IMG/VR virus record: IMGVR_UViG_3300026479_000047
Coordinates: 1-26,072 of that record
Strand: one strand, 5' to 3'
From: a virus
Length of the DNA stretch: 26,072 nt
Position 1 is the stretch's first letter. Every line of letters starts with the position of its first letter. Below the pieces are notes generated by a model that did not search any database, was not told where the DNA came from, and saw only the letters and a program-made list of their open reading frames with translations. A program made the position numbers and the translations under genes. Shown here in pieces: positions 1 to 23,702 of the stretch.

Positions 1-63
1 AATGGAGAAGAATACAAAGTACAAATCGACAAGCCTATTGAATGTATCGGATGTGGCAGCTGA
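1..63 (+). CDS. C-terminal end of an upstream gene (partial)
   Basis: The first frame is open from the window edge to a TGA and encodes the last 20 residues of a protein, ending in PIECIGCGS. The composition is protein-like, and the 52-base gap to the next start suits an operon. Too little is visible to name a function. The closely spaced Cys pair in the tail could bind metal, but that is a guess. Confidence 0.5.
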   Translation, partial: NGEEYKVQIDKPIECIGCGS

Positions 64-115
64 TTTAAAGGCATTAATTATACTATTTATACTAAACAAA
101 CTAAAATAAAAGACT

Positions 116-691
116 ATGGGAAAGACGAATTTATATAAGGCACTAGCTAACTTTCAGCAAAGCGTACCAGTAATTCACCAAAACACAAAAGGATATGGTT
201 ATACTTATGCTAATCTGGCTAAGATTTTTGAAACTATTAACCCTATAATGAAAGAGAATGGGTTAGGGTTTACTCAGTTGTTAGGTAATAACGACTTAGG
301 GTTTACAACAATTACTACAGTTGTATTTCATGTAGAAAGTGGTGAATATATTGAAAGTACTATGGTAATACCTAACGACGTTAACTTAAAAGGTATGAAT
401 GAATTTCAAGTAATGGGGTCAGCTATCACATATTACCGTAGATACTCTTTAAGTGCTATTCTAGGTATTATTACTGATAAAGATACAGACGCAAGCGGAG
501 AACAAGATAAAAAACCTACACCTGCTAAAAAGCCTACACCTAAAAAGAAAGAGGTTTTAAACTCTAGCCATAAGGTATGGGCTAATGTAGTAGTAGGATT
601 AAAGACTGGTTACACTATGGACCAAGTAAAGCAGAAGTACACAGTTTCTAAAGAAGTAGAAGAGGAGTTAACAAAATTAGCTAGCGAATAA
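116..691 (+). CDS. erf: ERF-family single-strand DNA annealing protein
   Basis: 191 residues. The N-terminal two thirds carry the ERF (essential recombination function) signature: an early YKAL..FQ segment, a GYGYTYANL stretch near residues 26-34, and the diagnostic block GSAITYYRRYSLSAILGI around residues 101-118, followed by an acidic DKDTDA segment. A Lys/Pro-rich linker (about residues 131-145) leads to a small C-terminal domain. ERF proteins anneal complementary single strands in phage homologous recombination. The stop codon overlaps the start of the exonuclease gene (TAATG), so the two are translationally coupled, as expected for an annealase-exonuclease pair. The family call is firm; the role in this phage is inferred. 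Confidence 0.92.
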   Translation: MGKTNLYKALANFQQSVPVIHQNTKGYGYTYANLAKIFETINPIMKENGLGFTQLLGNNDLGFTTITTVVFHVESGEYIESTMVIPNDVNLKGMNEFQVMGSAITYYRRYSLSAILGIITDKDTDASGEQDKKPTPAKKPTPKKKEVLNSSHKVWANVVVGLKTGYTMDQVKQKYTVSKEVEEELTKLASE

Positions 692-1308
692 TGAAACAAT
701 TTAAGATAAGTCCAAGCCAATGCGGTAAGATAATGGTTAACGCTCGTAAGAAAGGCGAACTATCTAAAACTACTTTAAGCTACGTAGACGAATGGGTTAA
801 AGAGCAAATCTACGGTAGAAGAAAAGATATTAGTAGTAAGTATTTAGATAAGGGTAACGACGTAGAAGACGCTTCTATTGATTACATATCTAAGATGCTA
901 AATCTAAAAGGTATTAAGAAGAACGAAGAGTTATTCGAGAACGACTTTATGAAAGGTACTCCCGACGTTATAACTAACGACACGGTAATAGACCTTAAAA
1001 ACTCTTGGGATTGCTTTACGTTCCCTTTATTAGAGAAAGAAGTGCCAAACAAAGATTACTTCTATCAGTTGCAGTGCTATATGGCTTTAACAGGTAAAAA
1101 GAAAGCTAAGTTAATCTATACGTTAATGAATACACCAGAGGACTTAATACCTAAATGGGACCTCTTCAACCATTGCTATGACGGTATAGATACTAAGTAT
1201 AGAATTAAGGTATTTGATATTGAGCGAGACGACGAAGTAATTAAAGAGATAGAAAACAGAGTAAAAGCAATTAGAGAACACATCGCAGTAGTAACTGCAT
1301 TTATTTAG
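691..1308 (+). CDS. PD-(D/E)XK exonuclease, YqaJ/lambda-Exo-like
   Basis: 205 residues. The nuclease core is visible as GTPD (residues 89-92) followed by the D-x-K motif DLK (101-103), then YQLQCYMALTGKKKAKLIY (about 125-143), which matches the helix-strand that follows the active site in YqaJ/RecB-type nucleases. An acidic residue near 59 (GNDVEDA) may be the upstream metal ligand. Such enzymes resect double-stranded ends to give the substrate for the ERF annealase encoded immediately upstream. The pair would form a two-component recombination system, completed by the SSB-like protein just downstream. A Cas4/RecB-type nuclease is a less likely alternative. Confidence 0.85.
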   Translation: MKQFKISPSQCGKIMVNARKKGELSKTTLSYVDEWVKEQIYGRRKDISSKYLDKGNDVEDASIDYISKMLNLKGIKKNEELFENDFMKGTPDVITNDTVIDLKNSWDCFTFPLLEKEVPNKDYFYQLQCYMALTGKKKAKLIYTLMNTPEDLIPKWDLFNHCYDGIDTKYRIKVFDIERDDEVIKEIENRVKAIREHIAVVTAFI

Positions 1309-1329
1309 TAAACAATTAAATTATATATT

Positions 1330-1584
1330 ATGAGTGAAGCAAAAATTTTCGTAGGAAACGGAAAAGAAAACGAACAGTATGGGTTTGTAAACTTTTCAAT
1401 CTGTTTATCAGACTTACCACAGGAACACGTTAGTGAGTTTAAAGGTAAGAAGTACATTAACTTAACTATCTCTAAGAAGAGAAACGGTGCGGATGATTAC
1501 GGTAAGACTCACGCGGTTAGTGTGAATACTTGGAAGCCAGAAGGAAAGGTAATAGATGACTCACCGTCAGACCTCCCATTCTAA
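1330..1584 (+). CDS. Small protein with SSB-like acidic C-terminal tail
   Basis: 84 residues. No classical OB-fold SSB motif is obvious by eye, but the protein is short, beta-strand rich, and has basic segments (FKGKKYINLTISKKRNG) that could contact DNA. Its last residues, DDSPSDLPF, closely resemble the conserved tip of bacterial SSB, which in Bacteroidetes ends in DDLPF and recruits replication and repair partners. Its position directly after an annealase and an exonuclease fits a single-strand DNA-binding or recombination-mediator role. This is inference from the tail and the context. Confidence 0.6.
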   Translation: MSEAKIFVGNGKENEQYGFVNFSICLSDLPQEHVSEFKGKKYINLTISKKRNGADDYGKTHAVSVNTWKPEGKVIDDSPSDLPF

Positions 1585-1610
1585 AAAGGTAGTTTGCATC
1601 TTACCTTTTT
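1583..1610 (+). terminator. Hairpin at the end of the recombination operon
   Basis: A perfect 9-bp stem (AAAAAGGTA at 1583-1591 with TACCTTTTT at 1602-1610) encloses a 10-base loop and ends in five T. The upstream gene's stop codon lies at the start of the stem. It looks like a modest intrinsic terminator. A second GC-rich stem at 1646-1652/1661-1667 (7 bp with one G-T) lies before the next gene but lacks a T tract. Confidence 0.55.
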
Positions 1611-1685
1611 AAGTACCTACTTAAAGAATTAGATTTAGAAATTATAGAGGGGTGGGAACGCTCCTCTTAATTAAACAAAAACGAA

Positions 1686-1892
1686 ATGAAAAAACTATTA
1701 ACTACTCTATACAAAAACACACTAAGTCAGATATTACTACTACTTACTGTAATGTTTCTTTCTTACTTCCTTTCTAGGTGGTTCGAATCGCTATATTCGG
1801 TGTCTGTTATCGCTTCTGTTATGCTATTGGTTTACGCTTTAGTATTTATTATAGCTGGTATTGTTAACGCTATTAAAGACGGTTTAAAATGA
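1686..1892 (+). CDS. Small membrane protein, two predicted transmembrane segments
   Basis: 68 residues with two hydrophobic stretches, about residues 14-29 (SQILLLLTVMFLSYFL) and 39-60 (VSVIASVMLLVYALVFIIAGIV), separated by a short polar loop. A Lys-rich N-terminus and a basic C-terminus suggest both ends lie in the cytoplasm. The A-rich leader (ACAAAAACGAA) before ATG is typical of this genome. The last codons overlap the next membrane-protein gene (ATGA), so the two are probably made together. Size and topology would also fit a class II holin-like protein, but no lysis enzyme is nearby, so I do not assign one. Confidence 0.65.
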   Translation: MKKLLTTLYKNTLSQILLLLTVMFLSYFLSRWFESLYSVSVIASVMLLVYALVFIIAGIVNAIKDGLK

Positions 1893-2254
1893 GTTTAGTA
1901 CTAGTAATGTTAGCAGCTATATGTAATGCTATAATGGACGTGACACAGTTTCATTTTTACAAATCTATATTTAATAAAGAACCTTTTAGCGTTTCTTGGT
2001 GGAATGGAGATATATCGTGGAGAAATAAATATAAAAACGGTTCAGTATCTCAAGGGCGTAATAATATCCCTGTATGGTTTACGGATGCCTTCCACTTTTT
2101 TAAAAGTTTAATGATACTACTATTAGCTTTAGCTATAATCTCTTATGAAACTATGATCAACCCGTTAATAGATTTATTTATGTTAGGGTTAGCTTGGAAC
2201 ACTTTCTTTTCTTTATTTTACAAACACATTTTAAAATCAGAGACCTATGAGTAA
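1889..2254 (+). CDS. Membrane protein with WWNGDISWRNKY motif
   Basis: 121 residues. The N-terminus is hydrophobic (about residues 2-17), and two further hydrophobic stretches occupy roughly 72-86 and 90-112. Between them is a polar region rich in aromatic and basic residues (VSWWNGDISWRNKYKNG, then an FTDAFHFFKS segment). Proteins with a similar SWRxKxKNG...HFFK pattern are common as uncharacterised genes in Bacteroidetes. The gene overlaps its neighbours on both sides (4 bases upstream, 8 downstream), so it is part of the replication operon. The function is unknown; membrane tethering of replication or superinfection exclusion are possibilities without direct support. Confidence 0.65.
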   Translation: MSLVLVMLAAICNAIMDVTQFHFYKSIFNKEPFSVSWWNGDISWRNKYKNGSVSQGRNNIPVWFTDAFHFFKSLMILLLALAIISYETMINPLIDLFMLGLAWNTFFSLFYKHILKSETYE

Positions 2255-2912
2255 ATTACGAAGCGTAAGCACATCGTTTTGGTCTGACCCTTTTATAGAG
2301 GAGTTATCACCAGAAGCTAAACTATTATATCTATACCTCATTACAAACGATAAGACTAATATGCTAGGCGTTTATGAGTCAAGTATTAAAAAGATGTCAT
2401 TCGAAACTGATATAAGCAAAGAAAACATAAAGACATATCTAAACAATTTTGAGGGGTTCGGAAAGATTCAGTATTTAGACAATTACATTATATTAGTTAA
2501 CTACGCTAAGCACCAAAGATATAATACTAATATGCGTAAATCTGCTATTCAGATATACAACTGTTTACCTGACAGTATTAAGTTCTGCATAGATCTACCT
2601 AGTGACATGGAATCTTTAAAAGAAAGTAAGCCAGTCAAAGCAATAGAGAAAGCTGAAGCAGTAGAAGAAAGCGGCTACAAGTACAAAGAGGGGAACTTAC
2701 AGTTAACGCACAAAGAGTATAGGAAACTAACAGAAAACCATTCCGAAATGATGGTAGACGACTATATTAACAGGGTTGCAAATTGGAAGAACAAAGACAA
2801 GATTAAATCTATGTACTTTACTATCATTAGATGGATGTCTAAAGACACTAAAGCTCAACCTGTGGAGGTTAAAAAAGAAAGTAATATTACTGGGTTTAAT
2901 GAAGTGTTTTAA
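2247..2912 (+). CDS. Replisome-organiser / DnaD-like replication protein
   Basis: 221 residues. The N-terminal ~110 residues read like the winged-helix domain of phage replisome organisers (SFWSDPFIEELSPEAKLLYLYLITN, then a segment of helices ending in YIILVNYAKHQ). A charged linker (about 125-150) leads to a helical C-terminal part ending in a short tail. Proteins of this kind load the replicative helicase at the phage origin. The next gene, 3 bases downstream, is a helicase-type ATPase, which supports that pairing. The N-terminal similarity is fairly clear by eye; an origin-binding role is inferred. Confidence 0.7.
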   Translation: MSKLRSVSTSFWSDPFIEELSPEAKLLYLYLITNDKTNMLGVYESSIKKMSFETDISKENIKTYLNNFEGFGKIQYLDNYIILVNYAKHQRYNTNMRKSAIQIYNCLPDSIKFCIDLPSDMESLKESKPVKAIEKAEAVEESGYKYKEGNLQLTHKEYRKLTENHSEMMVDDYINRVANWKNKDKIKSMYFTIIRWMSKDTKAQPVEVKKESNITGFNEVF

Positions 2913-2915
2913 GTT

Positions 2916-3944
2916 ATGAAGTATTACTATAAACTAAACGACGTAACACAAGGGTTGAACAAACTAAGAGAAAACGGGTTAACTAGAGGTAAAGAAACTG
3001 GTTTCCCTTTTGATAATTTAGGTATATCTATTAAACCAGGTTGTACTACTTATTTAGCAGGTGCACCAGCTTCAGGTAAGTCTGAATTTTGGCTTGAAAT
3101 ATTAATTAACTTATCATGTCTTTACGACTGGAAGCACGTTATATTCACACCAGAAACAGGAAACGTGCAGGAGGTATACGCAGAACTATGCTTTAAGTAT
3201 ATAAACAAACCTTACTTTTCTACTGTTGATGGGTGCATGAGTGAAGCCGAAAGAGTTAAAGCCGAGATGTTTATTAGTGAACACTTTATAGTAGTAGACC
3301 CTAAAGACGACACTATAACTATTAAAGACTACTACAAGGTGGTAGATGACATAGAGCAAGAATACGGTATAACTGTTAACACTACAACTATAGACCCTTT
3401 TAACGAGGTTAAGCATGAGCTAGGAGCAGGTAGACAAGATTTATATATAGAGGAGATACTCGGGGAATGCAGAAGAAACGCAAGAGCGACAAAGAGACAT
3501 AACTGTTTAATTACTCACGTTAGAGACCAACCTATTATAGAAAAGGAGGGTAAAAGATTTTGTCCTATTCCAACACCTAGAGAGTTCGCAGGTGGACAAG
3601 CTTGGTTTAGGAAAGGTGAACAAATGGTTATTGTTTGGCGACCGCCTTACGGTGTCACTAGAGATAACGGTGAAGGAACTTACCAAGCTAATGAATGTAT
3701 AATAAGAGTAGCTAAGGAAAAGCCAAAAGGAGCGAGTAAAAAAGGCGATTATACTTTTTACTATGACAAAGGCAAGAATGCTTACTACTACGAAGAAAAC
3801 AACGCTAAATATTATGCTAAAAGAGATTTAAAACTAGAACAAAAGAAAATAAACCTAGAGCCTGAACCAAGTATGGATAGCTATATAAGAGGCGACAGCT
3901 TCACAAGGGCAACTGATGAAGACTTAGACTCATTACCATTTTAA
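2916..3944 (+). CDS. RecA-fold (DnaB-like) helicase ATPase with SSB-like tail
   Basis: 342 residues. The Walker A loop is GAPASGKS (residues 49-56), followed by the helicase-style strand VIFTPETG (75-82). A Walker B-like strand ends at D160 (NTTTIDPFNEV), and a sensor-type ITHVRDQP follows (199-206). This order matches the C-terminal ATPase of DnaB-family replicative helicases or RepA-like ATPases; no N-terminal primase-interaction domain is present. It acts with the replisome-organiser-like protein encoded immediately upstream. The extreme C-terminus, DEDLDSLPF, resembles an SSB tip, which is unusual for a helicase. An alternative is a hexameric recombination ATPase. Confidence 0.8.
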   Translation: MKYYYKLNDVTQGLNKLRENGLTRGKETGFPFDNLGISIKPGCTTYLAGAPASGKSEFWLEILINLSCLYDWKHVIFTPETGNVQEVYAELCFKYINKPYFSTVDGCMSEAERVKAEMFISEHFIVVDPKDDTITIKDYYKVVDDIEQEYGITVNTTTIDPFNEVKHELGAGRQDLYIEEILGECRRNARATKRHNCLITHVRDQPIIEKEGKRFCPIPTPREFAGGQAWFRKGEQMVIVWRPPYGVTRDNGEGTYQANECIIRVAKEKPKGASKKGDYTFYYDKGKNAYYYEENNAKYYAKRDLKLEQKKINLEPEPSMDSYIRGDSFTRATDEDLDSLPF

Positions 3945-3953
3945 AAAACAAAC

Positions 3954-4244
3954 ATGACGGATAAAAAACTAAAACACCAAGGCGTACTAGCTGAACTAGT
4001 AGCTAAATTAAAAGGCTTAGAAAATAAAACGGAAAGCCAAAAGAAAACATTAGACGACTTAGTAAACATAAGATTCCACATACTTCTAATGTATGATAAA
4101 GTAGAGGAGCTAGAAAAGGCTAATACTGAACTTTGCTACAGTAACGCCAACCACGAAAGATTCATCTTTAGTCAGAAAAGACTACTAAAAGCACAAGACA
4201 AAGAGTTGAAAGAGATAAAAGAAGTATTACACAATTCTATATAG
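3954..4244 (+). CDS. Coiled-coil hypothetical protein
   Basis: 96 residues, almost entirely charged and helical. Heptad-like spacing of leucines covers about residues 6-35 and 48-92, including a YDKVEELEKANTELCYSN stretch, so a coiled coil or helical hairpin is likely. It starts 9 bases after the helicase stop and belongs to the same operon. No family is recognised. A helicase- or phosphoesterase-associated accessory role would fit the position but is unsupported. Confidence 0.6.
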   Translation: MTDKKLKHQGVLAELVAKLKGLENKTESQKKTLDDLVNIRFHILLMYDKVEELEKANTELCYSNANHERFIFSQKRLLKAQDKELKEIKEVLHNSI

Positions 4245-5431: not shown

Positions 5432-5971
5432 ATGGAAATTTGGAGACCTATAGAAGGTTTAGAAAGTAGTTACGAAGTGTCAAACTTAGGTAATGTTAAA
5501 ACTAAAGAGAGGGTTGTAAGAAACTCTACCCACGGTAAAGCAGATGGTTATAGACTTTTGAAAGAAAAGATTCTTTCCCCTAAAACTAAAAGGAACGGGT
5601 ACTTAGAAGTCAGTTTAACTATTTCCACTAGGAATAGAAAGTCTTTTTATGTTCATAGACTTGTAGCTATAGCTTTTATTGGTGGTATACCAGAGGGTTA
5701 TAATGTTAACCATAAGAACGGAATTAAATCCGATAACAGTTTAAACAACTTAGAAGTAGTAACGCATTCTCAAAATATGAAACACGCTTACGATAATGGC
5801 TTAAACAAACCCCCAGTTAATTATAAGTTTAAAGATAATGAGGTTAAAGATATTAAACGTCTAAAGAAAGTAGACGGACTTTACAACAAGCAGATAGCGG
5901 ATATGTACGGGTGTAATATCGGTACAATCCAAGGTATAACCTCGGGTAGAACATACAAACACGTTAAATAA
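5432..5971 (+). CDS. Homing endonuclease, NUMOD4-HNH type
   Basis: 179 residues. The N-terminus is a NUMOD4 motif (EIWRPIEGLESSYEVSNLGNVKT, residues 2-24, one of the DNA-binding modules of homing enzymes). The HNH_3 core follows: HRLVAIAFIGG then VNHKNGIKSDNSLNNLEVVTHSQN, with the conserved His-Asn and Asn-Leu residues. The C-terminal ~50 residues look like a helix-turn-helix (NKQIADMYGCNIGTIQGI). It is a free-standing mobile endonuclease lodged between the phosphoesterase and resolvase genes; no intron boundaries are apparent. Its stop overlaps the next start (TAATG). It probably spreads by cutting related phages that lack it. Confidence 0.9.
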   Translation: MEIWRPIEGLESSYEVSNLGNVKTKERVVRNSTHGKADGYRLLKEKILSPKTKRNGYLEVSLTISTRNRKSFYVHRLVAIAFIGGIPEGYNVNHKNGIKSDNSLNNLEVVTHSQNMKHAYDNGLNKPPVNYKFKDNEVKDIKRLKKVDGLYNKQIADMYGCNIGTIQGITSGRTYKHVK

Positions 5972-6318
5972 TGATTTACGAATACTACATAAAAGAAAAC
6001 CCTATAAGCCTTAACGACTGGTATTCGGGGAAACATTGGACTCAAAGAAATAAGCAAAAAAACAAATGGAGTAACTTATTTAAAGAGCATCTAGATGTCA
6101 ATCCACCTAACAAACTAACTAAGTATAAGATAACATTACTAGTTAACAGTAGGCACGACCCAAGTAACACTATAACTATCATAAAGATATTTGAAGACAC
6201 GTTAAAAAAGCTAGGTTATATTGTAGATGATTCGCCTAAATACTGTAAAAGTATAACGATTAAACCAGATTCAACACTAGAAAAACCTAGTTTTAAAATA
6301 GTTTTAGAAAGTATTTAA
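5971..6318 (+). CDS. rusA: RusA-like Holliday junction resolvase
   Basis: 115 residues, close to the usual ~120 of RusA. The N-terminus (ISLNDWYSGKHW...R) resembles the phage RusA pattern of an NxxY-type start followed by basic residues. The active-site region reads SRHDPSNTITIIKIFEDTLKKLGYIVDDSPKY, with an acidic residue in the DPSN position and the closing DD, matching the metal-binding acidic residues of RusA. RusA resolves four-way junctions produced by the recombination system encoded at the start of the window. Translational overlap with the homing endonuclease suggests that gene was inserted directly ahead of it. Confidence 0.8.
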   Translation: MIYEYYIKENPISLNDWYSGKHWTQRNKQKNKWSNLFKEHLDVNPPNKLTKYKITLLVNSRHDPSNTITIIKIFEDTLKKLGYIVDDSPKYCKSITIKPDSTLEKPSFKIVLESI

Positions 6319-6372: not shown

Positions 6373-6414
6373 GTTAAAAAGTTAGGAGTTATCAACTTAA
6401 ATAGTGTATCTTTG
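6373..6414 (+). promoter_or_regulatory. Phage promoter module, copy 1
   Basis: A 24-base element beginning GTTAAAAAGT and ending AAC (6373-6396) is followed after 10 bases by TATCTTTG (6407-6414), a perfect match to the Bacteroidetes -7 consensus TAnnTTTG. It starts on the base after the terminator T tract and precedes the gene at 6444, so transcription likely restarts here. Two other copies are at 9571 and 13141. Confidence 0.75.
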
Positions 6415-6443: not shown

Positions 6444-6719
6444 ATGAAATTAAGAAGCGGACAAATTCAAGACGTAAAAAAAGCAATTATCAAAGAGGTA
6501 AAAGAGTTAGAGTACGGTACTAAAAGTGTTAATTCTTACGTAACATTAACCGACTTAGATTTAGACCTAGATTACACTTTAAAGGTAGCGCCTGTAGTAT
6601 ATAGCGGTTTAACTTTAATAGCTTGTTTAGATTACTGTGTAGCATTCCACGAAAGTGTTGGAGATGTAGATATAGAAAACACAGAAGATATTGAGACTAT
6701 AACTATTAAACTTTGGTAA
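6444..6719 (+). CDS. Hypothetical acidic protein
   Basis: 91 residues, acidic in the second half, with a DLDLDLDYTLKV run near residues 32-43 and a probable alpha/beta fold. The ATG follows the leader AACAAAAACGAATAACT downstream of a strong promoter, so it is probably expressed early and well. No family is recognised. Confidence 0.7.
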   Translation: MKLRSGQIQDVKKAIIKEVKELEYGTKSVNSYVTLTDLDLDLDYTLKVAPVVYSGLTLIACLDYCVAFHESVGDVDIENTEDIETITIKLW

Positions 6720-6720
6720 T

Positions 6721-6885
6721 ATGGACAACGATGCACTACAAGCGATAGAGATAGTAGACAACTTGCTACTGTCTTATAAAGAAAAGATAAAGCAATTGCC
6801 AAAAAACGAAAGACTCAAACAAGGCTTTAACGATATGCTACAGGTAAGGGGCGTATTATGGAACTTAGGAAAGAATAAAAATTAA
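6721..6885 (+). CDS. Small hypothetical helical protein (54 aa)
   Basis: The ATG lies one base after the preceding stop. The 54 residues (MDNDALQAIEIVDNLL...) form a plausible amphipathic helical protein with a basic C-terminus. Codon use matches the neighbours, and the tight spacing supports translation. The function is unknown. Confidence 0.6.
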   Translation: MDNDALQAIEIVDNLLLSYKEKIKQLPKNERLKQGFNDMLQVRGVLWNLGKNKN

Positions 6886-6927
6886 CTTAGAAACCAATTA
6901 AAAACAAACAAACAAAAAACAATTATT

Positions 6928-7389
6928 ATGAAAAAATTATTATTACTACTAGCAGTTATTACAAGTTTAACAATTAACGCACAATGGAAGCAGGGTTATT
7001 ATGTAGATGAATTCGGAGATAGAACGGGTGACACGTATATGCACATGAGAGCTGTGGGAACTTTCTCTAACTCAGCCACGCAAAACTCGAAATGTGTTTA
7101 TGACTTTTACGATTCAGGCAATAGTATTACTGTAGATGTAAAAGAGTATGGTAGTAGTATGGCTACATCTATAGGGTATTCATTCGAGATAGTAAAAATA
7201 AAAACGCCTAGCGGAGAGGTTGAAACAATATATAATACATTCTTCGATAAGTCAGGCGTGTTATTTTTCACTAAAAAAAGATATACTCAACTAAAATCTA
7301 TACTAGCAGAAAAAGGCAGATACGTCATGGTGTTTAAAAAATCTGGTAAATACTCTAGTTCATCATATAAAGTACTTATCGAAAACTAA
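6928..7389 (+). CDS. Secreted protein with signal peptide
   Basis: 153 residues. The N-terminus MKKLLLLLAVITSLTINAQ is a textbook Sec signal peptide ending in the NAQ cleavage context common in Bacteroidetes. The mature part (about 134 residues) is beta-rich with many Ser, Tyr and Lys residues and no recognised domain. There is no lipobox Cys, so it is predicted to be periplasmic or secreted. A second secreted protein follows 27 bases later, suggesting a two-gene unit. Phage-encoded exported proteins often alter the host surface or exclude other phages; that role here is inference. Confidence 0.75.
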   Translation: MKKLLLLLAVITSLTINAQWKQGYYVDEFGDRTGDTYMHMRAVGTFSNSATQNSKCVYDFYDSGNSITVDVKEYGSSMATSIGYSFEIVKIKTPSGEVETIYNTFFDKSGVLFFTKKRYTQLKSILAEKGRYVMVFKKSGKYSSSSYKVLIEN

Positions 7390-7416
7390 TCAACATTAAA
7401 ACTAAATTAAATTATT

Positions 7417-7821
7417 ATGAAAAATCTACTATTAATCGGAATGCTACTTATGTCTGTAGCTAGTTTCTCACAACGTAATATAGAGTATAGAATCACTTCT
7501 AATAACCAGGAGCATTACATAGTTACAGGTGACGATGAAATTAAACTTGACTACAAAGTAATTGATGAATACTTATTTGAAATAGACTACTCGAATAGAG
7601 TGTTCTACTTTACTAGAAGCGGTGACACTTATGCGCTTAAAATTAAAAGTATTGAAAATAAAAGAGGAGATGAATACACGTATGAATTATATACTAAAAA
7701 CGGTCTTACTTTCACAATAATTATAAGTGCTACTCAAAAAAGAATAGTTGAAATAATTAAAAACTCTGAAGGCGTGGCTACTAGGTTTGTAGTTCATATA
7801 ATAGATAAAATACAGTATTAA
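7417..7821 (+). CDS. Secreted protein with signal peptide
   Basis: 134 residues. The N-terminal MKNLLLIGMLLMSVASFSQ is a clear signal peptide with cleavage likely after SFS or SFSQ. The mature protein is predicted to be all-beta, built of alternating charged and aromatic strands (for example FEIDYSNRVFYFTRSGDTY), with no recognised family. It resembles its upstream neighbour in design though not obviously in sequence. The pair sits between replication and DNA-modification genes, as accessory genes (morons) often do. Confidence 0.75.
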   Translation: MKNLLLIGMLLMSVASFSQRNIEYRITSNNQEHYIVTGDDEIKLDYKVIDEYLFEIDYSNRVFYFTRSGDTYALKIKSIENKRGDEYTYELYTKNGLTFTIIISATQKRIVEIIKNSEGVATRFVVHIIDKIQY

Positions 7822-7841
7822 AAAACAAAAATTAAATCATT

Positions 7842-8576
7842 ATGAAAAGAAGAGAAATAACAGAATTTAACGAAGCGTTCGGTTATCCAGCACCGAAAAA
7901 GCCAACTATTAAAGCTAACAACAAACTTAGAAGCAAATTAATTATTGAAGAGCTTACAGAGTATAACGATGCTGTAAAAGATAACGATATTGTAGAGATT
8001 GCAGACGCTATAGGCGATATGCTTTACTTAGTCTTAGGAGCAGCAGTAGAACACGGGATAGAGATAGAGCCAGTATTTAACGAGATACACCGCTCTAATA
8101 TGTCTAAATTAGGCGAAGACGGTAAACCGATTTATCGTGAAGATGGGAAAGTGCTTAAAGGGTCTAACTACTTTAAACCTAATATCAGTAAAACTTTAGT
8201 ACATTCGATTAACTATAAACCTGGTGTTAAATTCACTACAGATAAAACTATACTCGAGTTAGACGTTGAAATTGAAAAGTACATTAATACTGTAATAGAC
8301 GTTACTGCTGATTACTTCGACGTAACAGTTAATTCTTTAGCAGGTCCAAGCAGAAAGCAACCTATATCAATCGCTAGACATATTATTTCATACTTATGTT
8401 ATAAGAGGTACGATTACTATTCAATATTCGGCAAAGAACTTTCGTCTATCATCCATAGAGACAGAACCAGTTTCATACATGGTAATAAATTAGTTAGTCA
8501 ATTAATTAACTACGATAACAAAGTAGAGTTAGCAGTTAAAGACATAACTAAAACAGTTACCGCTGAACTAGGATAA
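7842..8576 (+). CDS. MazG-like pyrophosphohydrolase fused to DnaA domain IV-like domain
   Basis: 244 residues in two parts. Residues 1 to ~115 match the MazG/PRA-PH-like nucleotide pyrophosphohydrolases: the EEL.E helix (E36, E37, E40), the EIADAIGDMLYLV helix (52-64) with metal-binding acidic residues, and the family segment HRSNMSKL followed by GKPIYREDGKVLKGSNYF. Residues ~141-244 resemble DnaA domain IV: YFDVTVNSLAG, SRKQPISIARHIISYL, and RDRTSFIHG (206-214), which aligns with the RDHTTVLHA DNA-recognition helix of DnaA. The host-type His is replaced by Arg208. No AAA+ domain is present. It could hydrolyse nucleotides and also bind DnaA-box-like DNA. The first domain is firm; the second is a motif-based call. 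Confidence 0.8.
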   Translation: MKRREITEFNEAFGYPAPKKPTIKANNKLRSKLIIEELTEYNDAVKDNDIVEIADAIGDMLYLVLGAAVEHGIEIEPVFNEIHRSNMSKLGEDGKPIYREDGKVLKGSNYFKPNISKTLVHSINYKPGVKFTTDKTILELDVEIEKYINTVIDVTADYFDVTVNSLAGPSRKQPISIARHIISYLCYKRYDYYSIFGKELSSIIHRDRTSFIHGNKLVSQLINYDNKVELAVKDITKTVTAELG

Positions 8577-8603: not shown

Positions 8604-9563
8604 ATGAACGTATTATCACTTTTCGACGGGATGAGTTGTGGACAGATAGCTCTAGACAAATTAGGAATTAAAGTAGATAACTACTTTGCAAGTGAAATAG
8701 ATAAATATGCTATACAAGTAACACAAAATAACTACCCAGAAACTAAGCAGATTGGGAGTGTTACAGAAGTGAAAGGTAAAGATTTACCAAAGATTGATTT
8801 ACTTTTTGGCGGTAGCCCTTGTCAGAGTTTTAGTGTAGCAGGTAACGGTAAAGGGTTTAATGGTAAAAGCGGTTTATTCTGGGAGTACGTAAGAGTGTTA
8901 AAAGAAGTTAAACCTAAATACTTTTTACTTGAGAATGTAGTAATGAAGAAAGAGTGGGAGCAAGTTATCACAGATGCATTAGGTGTTGAACCGATTAAGA
9001 TTAATAGTAGCCATTTAAGCGCACAAAATAGAAACCGTTTATACTGGACAAACATACCAGAAGTAAAAGTACCAGATGATAAAGGTATTCAGCTTTGCGA
9101 CATACTAGAGACCAATTTACCGTCTTGTGGTGTTGGCGGTAGGGTTGTAGGTCGCAGACTTAACGAGATAGGGAAAAGAGAAGATTATAATAAAAGCATT
9201 CCTATTAGCCAATATCTAGAGTTAAGAAAAGACAAAAAGTCTAACTGTATGACTACTGTTTATAAAGATTCTGTAGTGCCTTATTTCAAAACAGATAAGC
9301 GTATAAAAATAAAATTTAATCAAAATAAGTCTAGCTGCTTAACTGGAGGTGGTAATAGTGGCGGAAATCATTCCGATATGGATATTCTAGTTATTGACCC
9401 AGACGTTTGTAGACGTTATTCAGTAACCGAGTGCGAACGACTTCAGACAGTACCAGATGGCTATACAAAAGGTGTAAGTAATACTCAGAGGTATAAGATG
9501 CTAGGTAATGGTTGGACAGTAGATGTAATAGCACATATCTTTAAAAATATACCACTAACTTAG
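8604..9563 (+). CDS. C5-cytosine DNA methyltransferase
   Basis: 319 residues with the C5-methyltransferase motifs in order: SAM-binding LFDGMSCGQ (residues 6-14), catalytic GGSPCQSFS with Cys73, LLENV (108-112), AQNRNRLYW (140-148), a variable recognition region, and C-terminal MLGNGWTVDVIAHI. The target-recognition region (about 150-270) contains a GGGNSGGNHSDMDIL segment. No restriction enzyme is encoded beside it, so it probably protects phage DNA from host restriction or acts on gene expression. Its stop overlaps the region leading into promoter copy 2. The target sequence cannot be read from sequence alone. Confidence 0.93.
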   Translation: MNVLSLFDGMSCGQIALDKLGIKVDNYFASEIDKYAIQVTQNNYPETKQIGSVTEVKGKDLPKIDLLFGGSPCQSFSVAGNGKGFNGKSGLFWEYVRVLKEVKPKYFLLENVVMKKEWEQVITDALGVEPIKINSSHLSAQNRNRLYWTNIPEVKVPDDKGIQLCDILETNLPSCGVGGRVVGRRLNEIGKREDYNKSIPISQYLELRKDKKSNCMTTVYKDSVVPYFKTDKRIKIKFNQNKSSCLTGGGNSGGNHSDMDILVIDPDVCRRYSVTECERLQTVPDGYTKGVSNTQRYKMLGNGWTVDVIAHIFKNIPLT

Positions 9564-9570
9564 TGTTGCG

Positions 9571-9613
9571 GTTAAAAAGTATTAGGTTTTTAACAAGTAG
9601 TTATATATCTTTA
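9571..9613 (+). promoter_or_regulatory. Phage promoter module, copy 2
   Basis: The 24-base element 9571-9594 begins GTTAAAAAGT and ends TTTTTAAC. In this copy its ends form a perfect 8-bp inverted repeat (GTTAAAAA/TTTTTAAC). After 11 bases comes TATCTTTA (9606-9613), one base off the -7 consensus. Leader repeats of AAAAACGAAT follow up to the ATG at 9641. Confidence 0.7.
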
Positions 9614-13140: not shown

Positions 13141-13182
13141 GTTAAAAAGTTATAGTTTATTAACTTGAAGTGCTTATATTTG
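13141..13182 (+). promoter_or_regulatory. Phage promoter module, copy 3
   Basis: The 24-base element 13141-13164 begins GTTAAAAAGT and ends TTAAC. Ten bases later comes TATATTTG (13175-13182), a perfect TAnnTTTG -7 box. As at 6373, it abuts a terminator T tract. A leader ACAAAAACGAATATT leads to the ATG at 13210. Confidence 0.78.
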
Positions 13183-13209
13183 ATGAAACGAATTACAAAA
13201 ACGAATATT

Positions 13210-13575
13210 ATGACTAGAATAAATGTAGCAGTAAAACCAATCGAGCTTAACGATAAAATGCTAATGGCAGAGCATAGAGAGATTAAGCGTATACCCAATT
13301 GCATTAAAAAAGGTCGTTATAATCTTAGCGGCATTCCTGACAAATTTACTTTAGGTACGGGTCATGTGAAATTCTTCTACAACAAGCTTGAGTACTTACA
13401 CGATAGATACGTAGACCTTTACTACGAATGTCTTAAACGTGGCTTTAACGTAACTAACTACGAAGAAGCTTTTAACGATTTACCAAACGAACTTTATAAC
13501 TGGTACGATGAAACTGATAGAGACAGGGAGATAATTTTACAGCGTATTAATGAACGATTAAATAGTAACAATTAA
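13210..13575 (+). CDS. denV: Pyrimidine-dimer DNA glycosylase (T4 endonuclease V type)
   Basis: 121 residues from ATG 13210; an in-frame upstream ATG at 13165 lies inside the promoter and is rejected. The N-terminus MTRINV keeps the catalytic Thr2 (the alpha-amino nucleophile) and Arg3 of T4 DenV. MAEHREIKR supplies the catalytic Glu (here Glu24) and flanking basic residues. FTLGTGHVKFFYNKLEYL and ECLKRGFNV match the T4 enzyme closely. It is about 17 residues shorter, lacking part of the C-terminal tail. The enzyme excises UV-induced cyclobutane dimers and nicks the DNA. A dedicated promoter suggests strong or early expression, sensible for a phage of sunlit water. Confidence 0.93.
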   Translation: MTRINVAVKPIELNDKMLMAEHREIKRIPNCIKKGRYNLSGIPDKFTLGTGHVKFFYNKLEYLHDRYVDLYYECLKRGFNVTNYEEAFNDLPNELYNWYDETDRDREIILQRINERLNSNN

Positions 13576-13971: not shown

Positions 13972-13999
13972 TTACAACGATTAAATAATAATTAGAAAT

Positions 14000-14027
14000 A
14001 GGGGTTACATATTGTAGCTCCTTTTTT
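14000..14027 (+). terminator. Intrinsic terminator after the GIY-YIG gene
   Basis: A 9-bp stem (14000-14008 with 14014-14022, two G-T pairs) with loop ATATT and six T. Stem and loop share 18 identical bases with the terminator at 6343. The one change, in the 3' arm, moves the G-T wobble without breaking the stem. Confidence 0.8.
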
Positions 14028-14063
14028 GGTTTATAGCCTTAAATTATACCCTTACTAGGGTGG

Positions 14064-14207
14064 TTACTTTTTCAACAAAAGAGCGTTACTTTTTCAACAC
14101 TTGCTACACTAGTAAGTATTTAGTTAGGTAATAAATAGCGTTTAATGCGTCAGACTTACTAATTTTTAGCGCGTTACTTTTTCAACAATGAGCTTACTTT
14201 TTCAACA
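14064..14207 (+). repeat. Four direct repeats TTACTTTTTCAACA
   Basis: Exact 14-base copies lie at 14064-14077, 14086-14099, 14174-14187 and 14194-14207. Spacing within the two pairs is 22 and 20 bases, about two helical turns, with 88 bases between pairs. Copies 2 and 3 share GCG before the repeat. All are in the same orientation in DNA without genes. They look like iterons: binding sites for a replication initiator or regulator. Confidence 0.85.
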
Positions 14208-14240
14208 GCGTTTTACTAAAGTGTTGATATACAGTAGTTT

Positions 14241-14303
14241 TAATCCTTTCAAAGGGTTACCTTATCCTTTCGAACCCTTACCTTATCCTTTCAAACCATT
14301 CCA
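14241..14303 (+). repeat. Three 21-bp tandem repeats with TTATCCTTTC core
   Basis: The core ATCCTTTC starts at 14243, 14264 and 14285, exactly 21 bases apart. Units read T(A/T)ATCCTTTC(A/G)AA followed by a variable, mostly CC-rich end. The first six bases, TTATCC, equal the start of the bacterial DnaA box (TTATCCACA) but the end differs. AAGGGTTAC in unit 1 (14252-14260) is mirrored by GTAACCCTT at 14313-14321. The arrangement suggests an initiator-binding array. Confidence 0.8.
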
Positions 14304-14323
14304 CTTTTTTTAGTAACCCTTCG

Positions 14324-14390
14324 GAAAGTAGAAGTAGAAGTAGAATAAGAATAAGAAGTAGAAGGTTAAGTATAAGTAGAAGTAGAATAC
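14324..14390 (+). repeat. Purine-rich GTAGAA simple repeat
   Basis: The top strand is nearly all A, G and T without C, made of AGTAGA and AATAAG units (for example GTAGAAGTAGAAGTAGAATA). It follows the 21-bp repeats. Such tracts can favour strand opening or slipped replication. No coding frame is supported here. Confidence 0.6.
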
Positions 14391-14624
14391 TAAACAGAAT
14401 ATCACTAAACAGATGCGCAACAAGTTGCTTTTACATAACTAATTCAATTTAATTCATTATAACCTTTTTAAAGCATTATTATAGCGTTATGGACTCTATA
14501 TATCATAATAAAAAGATAATCTCTTAAATCGCTTGTTTAACACCTTAAAAGCTATTCTACGATGCAGTTTTACCCTGTTTATTTATTTAGTTCATTAACT
14601 AGCTAATAGTATTAATAAATTCCG

Positions 14625-14632
14625 TATCTTTA
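14625..14632 (+). promoter_or_regulatory. -7 promoter box before the tail operon
   Basis: TATCTTTA matches TAnnTTTG except for the last base and lies 5 bases before ATG 14638. The 24-base upstream element of the other promoters is not clearly present. If used, transcription would start at or next to the ATG, giving a leaderless message. Confidence 0.45.
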
Positions 14633-14637
14633 ATAAG

Positions 14638-15948: not shown

Positions 15949-16442
15949 TGAACCTAAACACAATACAGAATATATTTAAAGAACTAGCTACTAAGCATAA
16001 AGCTATAAAGACGTTTTATACTGGTTTAGCTACTGAGTTTAATAGTGAGTTTAATTTAGAGTATCCTGCTTTAATTATTGACCCTGTAAGCATAACTAAG
16101 TCAGCTAGGGAGGGTTTCTTCGTTAATAATTGGAACGTAGTTCTAGAGGTTATAGACCTTATAAACGATGAGCGTAATATGGATGACGTTAACAAGACGT
16201 TAGATACTACTCAAAGAATACTAGACCAAGTTATAAGTAGGTTTATTACTGACTTTAACGATAAGCTTTTAACGTACGATAACGAGACGTTGAGAGCTGA
16301 TTGGGTTATTCAAGATAACTTTAACGTGTTACCGTTAATAGACGACACAGATAAGAATCACACAGGATGGCAAGTATCATTTACAATAACTGAGCAAGTA
16401 AGATTTTCTACTTGTTGCAATGATGACGTATTTAATGCCTAG
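15948..16442 (+). CDS. Tail terminator / head-tail joining-like protein
   Basis: 164 residues. Size, acidic character, an initial helix (LNTIQNIFKELATKHKAI) and a mixed strand-helix layout (YPALIIDP, NNWNVVLEVIDL, then a long helix, ending in a strand ITEQVRFS) resemble phage tail terminator or minor neck proteins that cap the tail. Its position directly before a gp10-like protein supports that. No diagnostic motif exists, so this is a structural-style guess. It shares 23 bases with the next gene. Confidence 0.5.
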   Translation: MNLNTIQNIFKELATKHKAIKTFYTGLATEFNSEFNLEYPALIIDPVSITKSAREGFFVNNWNVVLEVIDLINDERNMDDVNKTLDTTQRILDQVISRFITDFNDKLLTYDNETLRADWVIQDNFNVLPLIDDTDKNHTGWQVSFTITEQVRFSTCCNDDVFNA

Positions 16443-18844: not shown

Positions 18845-20862
18845 TGGCGACACCTTTAAACATATACAACTTAGATAAGTTTAACCCTTACGACTTTTTT
18901 ATTCCGTTAACGTTTAGTATTAATGACTTTAGAGACATTAGCACAAGAAACGGTACATTCAGTAAGACTGTTAAAATACCAGGTACTAAAAAGAATGACT
19001 CTTTATTAGGTCATAGCTTTGATATAACTGCGGAGGGTTTCTTTGATAGGAATAAAAGAGTACCTGCGATAATAGAAAAGGATGGTATTAAGTATTTAGA
19101 TGGTTCTATGCAGCTTAAAAGCGTAGACATAACAGACGGTAAAAGTCATGTTTACAACATCATACTATACTCTAGTCTATCCGATTGGGGTGCTTTGATT
19201 AAGGATAAAAATATACAGGACTTAGATTATGATACTTTTACCTATAATGCTGCTAATATTGAAAATAGTTGGTCTTATAATGGACGTGATAATGGTTATA
19301 CTTTCCCTCTTATTAATTATGGTGAGTTTACTACCTATCCTACCTATGATACTACTAATTTAGTAGTAGAAGACTTTTTACCATCTGTTTTTGTTTATGA
19401 TGTTTGTAGAAAGATATTTAACGATATAGGTTACCAACTTAAACCTGGTTTCTTTAATCGTCAGGAGTTTAGAGATTTAATAATGCCATCGGTACTTACT
19501 GACTTAACCGCATCTAAAGAGTTTTTAAATGATAACAGAATAAGAGCTATAGTAGGTAATACTTCATCCGTAGTACTTAGTACTCAAATAGGTAAATTTA
19601 ACCTTTATACTGGCTTAGAAGACCCATTTAGTAATTGGAGTAACTTTTACTATGTAGTACCTTTCCCTAATGGCAGTTTTAGCGGTAATGCTACTATAGA
19701 GGTTACTAACTTACAATTCTTGTCTGATAATGATGTAACTTTTAAGATTAGTGAATACCAAGACTTAGTGACCTTTAACAGGGTTATTGATGAACAGACT
19801 ATAACAGTTAAAAAGAACTCGCAAGAAGTAGCAACATTTGAATTGTCATTTAACAACGAACAGTTAACAGATGGTTATTTAATTCTTATAGAATGGACGT
19901 CTAGTAATAGTGGTACTTCCTTACAAGTGCTACCTAATGGCTTACAGTTCAATATAACGCCTATATCTGCACCTTTAGCAGATGGTTCTGAAATATCTAT
20001 TAAGGACTTTGTTTACGACATAGACCAATCTAATTTTATTAAATCACTAGTTCAACAGTTTAACTTAGTTCACTTGACAGATGAAAGAGCTAAAACGGTA
20101 GAGTTTCTACATAGGGATGACTTTTATTTAGGTATTGAAGAAGCAGAAGACTGGACAGAGAAGCTAGACGTTAGTAAAAGACAATCTATTGAGCAGATAG
20201 ACGAAAGGTTAAATAGAAGGTTAGACTTTAAGTATAAAGAAGATGATAAAGACATCTTACTAACTACCTTTAAAGACACTTGGTCAACTACATTAACAGA
20301 TGATTCTGAAGAATTGTTAAACGAATTTTTAAAAGATGAAAAAACAATCGCAAATCTTCCTTTCGCTGGAAGTGTGGGAAGTGGTACTATTATCCAAAAG
20401 ACAGGTGGAAGTTTATATTTGCCTCAATTAGTTAACTACTTTAGGACTCCAGATGACTCTATAGACCTACAACCTAGAATGTTAATTTACGAGGGTTTAA
20501 AAAGTGGTATATGGACATTCGAGAGTAGTGTTAAAAATAACTTCCCATCTAGCTACTTTATCAAAAAGTCTAGCGGTCAATTTGATGTGTCTTTAAGTTT
20601 TAAGAGTCTTAACGAAGTAGATAGGTCAATACAAGATAATGACAAAGGGTTAAAAGATAGGTTCTATAATGAGCAAATAAGACAGTTTAACGAGTCTAGG
20701 TTATATACTTGTTATCTAAGGTTAACAGGTGTTGATATTGTTAATTTAAACTTTAGAAAACCTAAGCTAATTAACGGAGTTTATTACTATCTTAATAAAG
20801 TAGAAGATTACAAGGCAGGAGTATACGAATCAGTTAAATGTGAACTAATACAAATAGTGTAA
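18844..20862 (+). CDS. Large tail/baseplate structural protein
   Basis: 672 residues. The N-terminal ~120 residues (LTFSINDFRDISTRNGTFSKTVKIPGTKKND, then DGSMQLKSVDI.DGKSHVYNIILYS..SDW) match a pattern I associate with Bacteroidetes phage tail proteins annotated only as structural. The long remainder is beta-rich, with a helical DERLNRRLDFKYKEDDKD segment around 450 and a YLRLTGVDIVNLNFRKP...YYLNKVEDYKAG ending. It precedes the tape measure by 2 bases. A baseplate hub or host-recognition part is likely from size and position; the exact role is unknown. Confidence 0.6.
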   Translation: MATPLNIYNLDKFNPYDFFIPLTFSINDFRDISTRNGTFSKTVKIPGTKKNDSLLGHSFDITAEGFFDRNKRVPAIIEKDGIKYLDGSMQLKSVDITDGKSHVYNIILYSSLSDWGALIKDKNIQDLDYDTFTYNAANIENSWSYNGRDNGYTFPLINYGEFTTYPTYDTTNLVVEDFLPSVFVYDVCRKIFNDIGYQLKPGFFNRQEFRDLIMPSVLTDLTASKEFLNDNRIRAIVGNTSSVVLSTQIGKFNLYTGLEDPFSNWSNFYYVVPFPNGSFSGNATIEVTNLQFLSDNDVTFKISEYQDLVTFNRVIDEQTITVKKNSQEVATFELSFNNEQLTDGYLILIEWTSSNSGTSLQVLPNGLQFNITPISAPLADGSEISIKDFVYDIDQSNFIKSLVQQFNLVHLTDERAKTVEFLHRDDFYLGIEEAEDWTEKLDVSKRQSIEQIDERLNRRLDFKYKEDDKDILLTTFKDTWSTTLTDDSEELLNEFLKDEKTIANLPFAGSVGSGTIIQKTGGSLYLPQLVNYFRTPDDSIDLQPRMLIYEGLKSGIWTFESSVKNNFPSSYFIKKSSGQFDVSLSFKSLNEVDRSIQDNDKGLKDRFYNEQIRQFNESRLYTCYLRLTGVDIVNLNFRKPKLINGVYYYLNKVEDYKAGVYESVKCELIQIV

Positions 20863-20864
20863 AA

Positions 20865-23702
20865 ATGGCAAAAGAAGAAGTATTTTTTGGAATAAACATA
20901 GATACGGGGGAAGCGATAAAAGACTTTGGTACTCTTAAAAAACGAACAAAAGAGTTAAAAAAAGAATTAGACGGTACTAAAGTAGGCACTAAGAGGTTTA
21001 AAGAACTACAGACGGAGATAACTAAGAACCAAGGCACTATAAGACGTTTTAACCGTGAGTTAAGAGAAACTAAATCTTTAGCTACTAGAGTAGGACAAGG
21101 TGTTACTACAGCGTTTAAAAGAGTAGGCGTAGCTATGGCTGGAGCTTTTGCGGTAAGCGGTATCTTTCAAGTCGTTAAAAATGGTATTAAAACTTTCGCA
21201 GATTTCGAACAGAAAATAGCTGATGTAGGAGCAGTATCAGGAGCAACAGCGACAGAACTTAAAGAACTTGAGTTATCCGCTAGAGGTTTAGGTAAAAGCT
21301 CTATATTCACAGCTGAACAAGTAGCTGGACTACAGTTAGAATTAGCTAAGTTAGGTTTTACTACAGATGAGATTATAAGTGCTTCTGGAGGTATATTAGA
21401 CTTATCTACAGCTTTCAGAATAGATTTATCACAAGCAGCTTCTGTCACAGCATCAACTCTAAGAGCTTTTGGGTTAACAGCTGATGATACTACAAATTTA
21501 ACTGACTTAATGGCTGATGCGTTCTCTAGCACAGCTTTAGACATAGATAAATTCCAAGAATCAGTAAAACTAGTAGCTCCAGCTGCTAAATTAACTGGTG
21601 TAGCTGTTGAAGAAGTATCTGCTTTGCTTGGTGTTTTAGCTAATAACGGACTTAGCGGTTCAGTTGCTGGTACTCAGTTAAATAGAGTATTTATTGAACT
21701 TAATAAAAAAGGGCTTACACTTGAAGAAGCTATGATTAGGGTTAACAATGCTACCGACCCTTTTGCTGAGTCTTTAGCGTTAGTTGGAGATAGAGGTGGT
21801 AAAGCTTTAGCTATTTTCTCTACTCAACAAGAATCTTTAAAAGCTTTAAGAAAAGACTTTGCTAATGTAACAGGAGAAGCCAGTAAGCTAGCTAAAGCCT
21901 CTGGAGACACTTTAATTGGTGCTACTAAAAGACTACAATCAGCTTGGGACGAGTTTGTTTTAAGCTTATCTGAGACTGATTCCTTTATGGCTAGGATAAC
22001 TAGAGGAGCAGTAGAATTAGGTACTTCGTTTTTAGAACTTATCACTGATTCAGAAGAATTAAGTGAATCAATGGAAAAGCAAAGGATAGAGCTTAACGTT
22101 TTAATATCTAGGATTACTGACGCTAATATTAAAGAAGAGGATAGAATAGATCTTATACAGCAACTAAACAAAGAGTACCCTGAGTTTTTAGGCAACTTAA
22201 ACGCTGAAACAGCTACTAACGAAGAGTTAGCTATGAGATTAGGTGAAGTTAACCAAGAGATGATTAATAAAATTGCTCTTCAGTTACAAGATGAAAAATT
22301 ACAAGAGAAACTTAAAAAAGCAGCTAAATTACAAAATGAGATATTTGAAGAAGAAGGTAAAATTAGAGCTAGAATCATAGAACTTAATGAAGACTATAAT
22401 TTAGGGATAGCTACAACTGGAACCTCTTTTGAGAGGATGGCAAGCGCTGCTAAATCAGCTTTAGATGCTCAGACTATAATCACTGATAACTTCAAAACTG
22501 GTTTACCTACAGTAAATTCCCAAGGTAGAGCTAATGACAAATTAAGTAACTCGTTAATGTTCTTAAAAGATATTCAAGAAGACTATAACGAAGCACAACA
22601 AGAAGCAATTGACCTTCAAACGCAAAGACAAAGACTTGTTGAGTCTTTATTCGGTGGTGAAGACCCTAATGCACAAGCTGACCCTACTACTCCTGACGTA
22701 AGTACTACGGGGGATTCAAAAGCTACTAAGAAAACAGCAGAAGAGTTAGAAAAACAAAGGAAGCTTTACTTTGATCACGAAAGACTTAAGATAATGGTCT
22801 TAATGGATGGTGAAGAAAGAGAATTAGCTTTGATTGATCTTAAATACGAAAAAGAAAAGCAGAAACTCACAGAAGCTGGTCTAACAGAAGCCCAAATATT
22901 AGAAGCTAATGAGAGAGATAAGGAAGCTATAAGGCAGAAATATAGAGAGAAAGAAGAAAAAGCAGAAGATAAAAAACAAAGAGACCTTAAAAAGCTTAGA
23001 GATGCTGAAGCGAAATATGATAAAGAACAATTAAAAAAGAAAAAAGCGGACGCAGAGAAAGAAGCGGAAATTAATAACTCTAGATTTGATTCTGCGGCTA
23101 GTTTAGTTAATTCTACAATAGCTTTACTAGATAGAGATGAAAAGTCTAGAAAAAAGAACGGTAAACTCATAAAAGCTCTAGCTATTGCAGAGATTGCCAT
23201 TAACACACAAAAAGCTTTAATGAATGTAGAAGTTAACGAGAAATCGCCTTTATTTTTACCTAACTTATTTACGGGAGGTTTAGCTGGTTTAACTATTGGT
23301 ACTGTTCAAAAAATAGCTATAGCAGCACAAGGTATAGCAAGTGCAGGAATTGTTGCTAGCCAAAAGTTCGCTAAAGGTGGTATCTTAAGCGGTCCAAGTC
23401 ATGCACAAGGCGGTATTAAAACTAATCTAGGCGAGTTAGAAGGTGGTGAAGCTGTTATTAATAAAAAGTCTACTGCTATGTTTGGCGGTGCTTTATCTGC
23501 TATAAATGAAGCAGGAGGAGGTAAGAAGTTCGCTAAAGGTGGGGTTTTAGGAGTGCCTTCGACAGTTAATACACCAGACACAACAAATAGCCAAGTACTA
23601 AGAGCAATTAACAATATTAATATTAAACCTACAGTAAGTGTGGTAGAGATTAACGACGCACAAACTAGAATATCGGAAATTCAAAACAATTCAACATTAT
23701 AA
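20865..23702 (+). CDS. Tail tape measure protein, TP901 type
   Basis: 945 residues. A charged N-terminal coiled coil (about 20-75) precedes a hydrophobic segment (AGAFAVSGIFQV) and the PhageMin_Tail/TP901 core (about 115-330: TAEQVAGLQLELAKLGFTTDEI ... LGVLANNGLSGSVAGTQLNRVFIELNKKGLTLEEA). Long Lys/Glu-rich coiled coils (about 640-760) follow, then membrane-compatible segments and the typical Gly-rich end (KFAKGGILSGPSHAQGG, ELEGGEAVINKKSTAMF). It sets tail length; 945 residues predicts roughly 140 nm by the usual 1.5 angstrom per residue rule, less if only the helical part counts. A long non-contractile tail is therefore likely. Confidence 0.93.
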   Translation: MAKEEVFFGINIDTGEAIKDFGTLKKRTKELKKELDGTKVGTKRFKELQTEITKNQGTIRRFNRELRETKSLATRVGQGVTTAFKRVGVAMAGAFAVSGIFQVVKNGIKTFADFEQKIADVGAVSGATATELKELELSARGLGKSSIFTAEQVAGLQLELAKLGFTTDEIISASGGILDLSTAFRIDLSQAASVTASTLRAFGLTADDTTNLTDLMADAFSSTALDIDKFQESVKLVAPAAKLTGVAVEEVSALLGVLANNGLSGSVAGTQLNRVFIELNKKGLTLEEAMIRVNNATDPFAESLALVGDRGGKALAIFSTQQESLKALRKDFANVTGEASKLAKASGDTLIGATKRLQSAWDEFVLSLSETDSFMARITRGAVELGTSFLELITDSEELSESMEKQRIELNVLISRITDANIKEEDRIDLIQQLNKEYPEFLGNLNAETATNEELAMRLGEVNQEMINKIALQLQDEKLQEKLKKAAKLQNEIFEEEGKIRARIIELNEDYNLGIATTGTSFERMASAAKSALDAQTIITDNFKTGLPTVNSQGRANDKLSNSLMFLKDIQEDYNEAQQEAIDLQTQRQRLVESLFGGEDPNAQADPTTPDVSTTGDSKATKKTAEELEKQRKLYFDHERLKIMVLMDGEERELALIDLKYEKEKQKLTEAGLTEAQILEANERDKEAIRQKYREKEEKAEDKKQRDLKKLRDAEAKYDKEQLKKKKADAEKEAEINNSRFDSAASLVNSTIALLDRDEKSRKKNGKLIKALAIAEIAINTQKALMNVEVNEKSPLFLPNLFTGGLAGLTIGTVQKIAIAAQGIASAGIVASQKFAKGGILSGPSHAQGGIKTNLGELEGGEAVINKKSTAMFGGALSAINEAGGGKKFAKGGVLGVPSTVNTPDTTNSQVLRAINNINIKPTVSVVEINDAQTRISEIQNNSTL

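Follow-up and report, generated by a model that had tools for sequence, protein, structure and literature searches.

A phage gene joining a MazG-type pyrophosphohydrolase to a DnaA domain IV-like domain, and its possible role as a phage-specific DNA-binding regulator

Why would a phage join an enzyme of nucleotide metabolism to the DNA-reading domain of a bacterial replication initiator? The question is raised by one gene in the window, the whole 26,072-nucleotide stretch of viral DNA that we analyzed. A first-pass annotation, made from the sequence alone, had described this gene as a MazG-like pyrophosphohydrolase fused to DnaA domain IV, and had proposed that the product acts as a decoy at host DnaA boxes, as a phage initiator, or as a sensor of (p)ppGpp or dNTP levels. 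The gene and its parts are as follows.

7842..8576, plus strand: MazG/PRA-PH and DnaA domain IV-like fusion gene (244 aa, ATG start, open frame)
7842..8186, plus strand: MazG/PRA-PH half, residues 1-115, DR2231-like (Pfam, PHROG 671, Foldseek)
7947..7961, plus strand: catalytic motif E36 E37 xx E40 (E36, E37 and E40 present in 58/58 ungapped separate MazG homologues)
8004..8018, plus strand: catalytic motif D55 xxx D59 (both present in 58/58 separate homologues; lost in the lineage of contig G009)
8184..8240, plus strand: flexible linker, residues 115-133 (pLDDT < 50)
8250..8570, plus strand: DnaA domain IV-like half, residues 137-243 (Bac_DnaA_C profile; fold match to 3pvp and 1j1v)
8352..8357, plus strand: R171 K172, with R171 at the position of E. 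coli DnaA Arg399 (invariant in all aligned fusions)
8457..8483, plus strand: recognition helix RDRTSFIHG, with R208 at the position of E. coli His434 (alignment to DnaA)

Three Pfam profiles exceeded their curated cut-offs in the fusion, namely PRA-PH (residues 8-86, 4.5e-17, 62.7 bits against a cut-off of 21.3), Bac_DnaA_C (residues 148-216, 4.1e-10, 40.0 bits against 31.5), and MazG (4.9e-5, 24.0 bits against 22), and PHROG 671, a phage nucleotide pyrophosphohydrolase family, matched at 2e-39. A sequence search of the PDB paired the N-terminal half with 3nl9 and DR2231 and the C-terminal half with the DNA-binding domain of M. tuberculosis DnaA (3pvp, 1.1e-6), where RDRT stands opposite RDHT. 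The AlphaFold2 model has two well-predicted domains with a low-confidence, disordered linker (residues 115-133) between them. When this model was searched with Foldseek, the C-terminal half matched DnaA structures, DnaA-DNA complexes included, with target-normalized TM scores of 0.88 for 3pvp and 0.86 for 1j1v, at an rmsd of 1.8-1.9 Å; the best structures for the N-terminal half were those of DR2231, several of them with dUMP or a dUTP analogue. Since the profile, PDB sequence, AlphaFold2, and Foldseek results concur, the fusion described by the first-pass annotation is confirmed, and the SRK, AR, and RDRTSFIHG motifs that it had read are all found in the domain IV half. It had also reported that the ATPase domain is missing, and Pfam indeed returned no match to AAA+ domain III in the 244 residues; because this domain is absent, the fusion protein is not a DnaA.

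The enzyme half resembles DR2231-like MazG/PRA-PH proteins and phage MazG (PHROG 671) in its fold, in its EExxE...DxxxD acids, and in N86 and K89. Standalone MazG forms occur in hundreds of phages, but unlike those that we read, which end near residue 120-145, the fusion continues into a DNA-binding domain. With E36, E37, E40, D55, and D59 all in place, the MazG half of the window is predicted to be a complete, metal-dependent dNTP pyrophosphohydrolase like DR2231. Sensing of (p)ppGpp seems a weak proposal, given that a cyanophage MazG neither binds nor cleaves (p)ppGpp and prefers dGTP and dCTP (PMC6850273), and that the closest structures are DR2231 complexes with a dUTP analogue or dUMP. 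The C-terminal half shares with DnaA domain IV (PF08299; 1j1v, 3pvp) its fold and the equivalents of Arg399, Arg407, Asp433, and Thr435. Of the DnaA contact residues, Arg399, Asp433, and Thr435 have retained equivalents, while His434 is replaced by Arg; R171, K172, R179, D207, and R208, all at DNA-contact positions, are invariant across the seven fusions aligned. Unlike DnaA, the fusion has no domains I-III and carries two to three extra helix-turn-helix residues, and the window is not enriched in DnaA boxes: with at most one mismatch to TTATNCACA, its 26 kb contain 19 boxes against 33.5 expected, and they are not clustered.

We found the join in about 10 other IMG/VR contigs, at the same genome position and under purifying selection, with dN/dS of 0.04-0.13 for both halves in most pairs. 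Full-length fusions in L002-L008 are 76-100% identical to that of the window, and more distant fusions are 43-51% identical; the gene is also present in the L181/L182/L183 lineage and in L103, and in L011 the contig end cuts inside the MazG half. The join is no assembly accident, as several independent contigs carry full-length fusions of 76-98% identity, and a fusion broken into two genes was seen in no contig of the group. Among longer contigs, the 40.5-kb G001 contains a stretch nearly identical to the window, and G007, G009, and G012, each of 36-38 kb, show broad synteny, with the fusion in the same place in all.

Searches outside this group support the view that the combination is unfamiliar, as no such fusion was found among named phages or in 399 sampled Flavobacteriaceae genomes. 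Matches in named phages covered at most 56% of the query and only its MazG part, and the domain IV half drew two weak matches there, in unannotated faecal phages. The first scan of bacterial genomes gave no relative and the second gave MazG-only relatives; the 399 Flavobacteriaceae genomes gave DnaA-like scores only (best 55 bits), with nearly all of the matches listed being DnaA-sized frames. In the literature searched, we found no paper that combines DnaA domain IV, MazG, and phage. Both component families are known; in the sources searched, we came across neither the join, nor its natural variant with a dead enzyme, nor the dyad that goes with it (described below). The host is probably a marine flavobacterium, judging from the closest MazG relatives and from TAnnTTTG promoters, a type that we take to be flavobacterial.

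The first-pass annotation had singled out a His-to-Arg change at a base-contact position. This change is real: Arg occupies the His434 position in all fusions and in 64/64 distinct separate domain IV proteins of related phages, versus His in 16/16 Flavobacteriaceae DnaAs, nearly all of which have the recognition helix RDHATVLHACKTV. The helix of the fusion differs from that of each flavobacterial DnaA read (H to R, A to T). His434-to-Arg is a phage-wide trait, and we agree that it predicts altered box specificity. Like the fusion, the separate phage “DnaA C-terminal” proteins (in uncultured Caudovirales, in Tenacibaculum phage Gundel_1, and in a 169-aa family) have domain IV without AAA+; unlike the fusion, they are not joined to MazG, and they are about 20% identical to it. 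The 169-aa family has its own, different C-terminal extension and shares the Arg at the His434 position. It comprises loci L196-L275, with 266 matching stretches in phage contigs, and tblastn gave no match to it in named phages. Since many viral proteins in BFVD are annotated as DnaA C-terminal, domain IV alone in phages was already known, and the novel part is its join to MazG.

Which sites might such a tail read? We identified a 24-bp inverted repeat, GTTAAAAA-N8-TTWTNAAC, with DnaA-box-like half-sites, at three promoters of the window.

6373..6396, plus strand: dyad GTTAAAAAGTTAGGAGTTATCAAC, at the promoter of 6444-8576, the gene run with the fusion
9571..9594, plus strand: dyad at the gene 9641 promoter, whose counterparts in L005, G003, and G009 lie directly 3' of the fusion gene
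13141..13164, plus strand: dyad at the promoter of the Pyr_excise gene 13183 (pyrimidine dimer DNA glycosylase)

The glycosylase gene behind the third dyad spans 13183-13575 (Pyr_excise, 1.7e-13). Dyads lie upstream of TAnnTTTG promoters at a constant spacing, three to four per genome (four in G001, three in G007, and four in G009), and the TAnnTTTG box is followed by a ACGAATAACAAAAACGAATA-like leader. Further copies are at 16169 in G001, at 23522, 29997, and 35982 in G007, and at 6146, 14095, 15303, and 20507 in G009 (reverse complement). In contigs with the domain IV type of the window, dyads scored 24-32 with a position weight matrix versus at most about 15 elsewhere, and the dyad was recovered in both L003 and L095, which had been held out of the matrix. 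Among the sequences scanned, the dyad was confined to contigs with this domain type: none occurred in the 2.5 Mb of other loci, it was absent from G012 and from G015, G016, G018, and G019, the last four being phages of the separate domain IV type, and in six flavobacterial genomes it did not rise above background. One G012 promoter has the left half-site, with the right half missing. Strict matches in L134, L149, and L150 were discounted, there being no promoter behind them. Since the dyad and the domain type share one phylogeny, their co-occurrence amounts to few independent events.

Two parts of E. coli DnaA share the reading of the box: Arg399 recognizes the 5' TTA from the minor groove, and TnCACA falls to the helix that begins at residue 434 (PMC5742627). 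Compared to the DnaA box, TTWTNAAC keeps the 5' TTW, the Arg399 part, and differs at position 6, within the TnCACA part. The half-site might thus fit a domain IV with Arg399 kept and His434 changed to Arg. We regard this as no more than suggestive, since roughly 4% of random 12-mers would resemble the DnaA box equally well, and some right half-sites fit only with two mismatches.

We favor, at a probability of roughly 0.4, the reading that the fusion is a phage-specific DNA-binding regulator on a MazG scaffold, with a domain IV tail re-specialized for phage sites. We infer that it binds the dyad, that MazG oligomerizes it, and that the outcome is regulatory. The MazG family oligomerizes, and it is from this family trait only that we expect the same of the fusion, whose MazG half would then probably serve also as an oligomerizing scaffold. 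Such an oligomer could place paired domain IV modules on the 24-bp dyad just upstream of TAnnTTTG promoters, where the bound protein would control phage transcription, that of its own operon included, and perhaps also replication at a noncoding region near 14 kb, with nucleotide hydrolysis as a second, dispensable function. The dyad could instead belong to the protein encoded at 2247, to a 79-aa helix-turn-helix protein at 23704, or to RNA polymerase itself.

Two features of the window bear on a role at the origin.

13972..14637, no strand: noncoding region of 666 bp, candidate origin, with four copies of TTACTTTTTCAACA (14-bp direct repeats, half-site TTTTCAAC) and three copies of the 21-bp repeat ATCCTTTC
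2247..2912, plus strand: replisome organiser/DnaD-like helicase loader (PHROG 1701, 1.7e-19; PHROG 6251, 5e-19)

It is rather unlikely, in our view, that the fusion is an origin-tethered enzyme or accessory initiator, with its tail on the phage origin, probably 13972-14637, and MazG cleaning or tuning dNTPs as replication starts. The noncoding region is equally placed in the window, G007, and G009, the four TTTTCAAC half-sites of the window region compare to 1.2 expected (P 0.03), and separate phage domain IV proteins can adjoin SSB-like or replication-like genes, as in G016, where one lies between genes of these two kinds (identified by eye). On the other hand, the repeats differ among the three genomes and are missing from G007 despite an identical recognition helix, and half-site counts are 1 versus 1.0 expected in G007 and 3 versus 1.2 in G009 (P 0.13). 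A dedicated replisome organiser is, moreover, encoded at 2247-2912, and its profile matches make it the more likely initiator; it is therefore doubtful that the fusion is the main phage initiator. As for particular targets, we do not take the four TTACTTTTTCAACA repeats for a conserved one: they are missing from the other fusion contigs, most of which do not cover the region, and from G007, which does. The TTATCC repeats at 14241-14303, put forward earlier as a site to test for binding, were not confirmed as DnaA boxes or as a conserved target; they are only partly present in G007 and G009 and are not conserved among relatives with the same recognition helix.

The two halves of the fusion have also changed separately. 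In the G009/G010/G011 lineage, the MazG half carries E36F, E37D, E40G, E52G, D55H, and D59S, and every catalytic acid is lost, while the domain IV half is intact (RDRTTFIHGNK) and 55% identical to that of the window. The protein is thus kept in one lineage without its catalytic residues, and AlphaFold2 still models the dead half with MazG helices. Genomes of this lineage also encode a second MazG, a standalone and intact protein of 106 aa that exceeds the Pfam cut-off; in G009 (L184/L185), this MazG and an adjoining thymidylate synthase-like gene, named by eye, lie at 20524-21636 on the minus strand. In L103/G012, the enzyme half is 76% identical to that of the window and the DNA-binding half 24%. 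Together, these two cases show that each half can be kept when the other diverges. The fusion gene of L005 (448-1200) is near L006 in its N-terminal half and near L004 in its C-terminal half, and looks like a recombinant between two lineages close to the domain boundary.

Such independence, along with the long linker and the loss of catalysis where a second MazG is present, is what would be expected of a loosely bifunctional protein with two unrelated, uncoupled activities on one polypeptide. We nevertheless consider this unlikely, as the join persists across lineages without ever being split in the contigs of the group seen, and even the dead MazG half is retained in helical form. The preferred regulator could also work as a switch, in which binding at dyad promoters is coupled to whether the MazG half is occupied by dNTP or dUTP, and one lineage would keep a dead scaffold or sensor while its second MazG hydrolyzes; if binding were so coupled, phage gene expression would read the nucleotide pool, a version that we find quite improbable. 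Most doubtful is an attack on the host, with the tail occupying DnaA boxes (TTATCCACA) at oriC or DnaA-controlled promoters to block host replication and MazG depleting nucleotides: it is the domain IV fold that binds DnaA boxes, and the Arg399 and Asp433 equivalents are retained, but the recognition helix is unlike each flavobacterial DnaA read and the DNA-binding half diverges rapidly among phages while the host helix is fixed, which, with the boxes not being enriched, also leaves the proposed decoy in doubt.

MazG is common in phages, and its purpose is still debated. The fusion, with variants altered in either half, offers a direct test of whether MazG acts via DNA and transcription and not just via the nucleotide pool. 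In phages, DnaA domain IV is reused as an independent unit for reading DNA, and the His-to-Arg change that these units have in common makes them convenient to compare with DnaA when asking what sets DnaA-box specificity.

Two other genes of the window, a C5 cytosine methylase (8604-9563) and a NUMOD4/HNH endonuclease (5432-5971), had no match in the relatives compared and are likely recent insertions. The ends of G001 (1-4211 and 36298-40503) overlap at only 87.5% identity; the overlap suggests a genome of about 36.3 kb, and its identity suggests mixed strains in the assembly.
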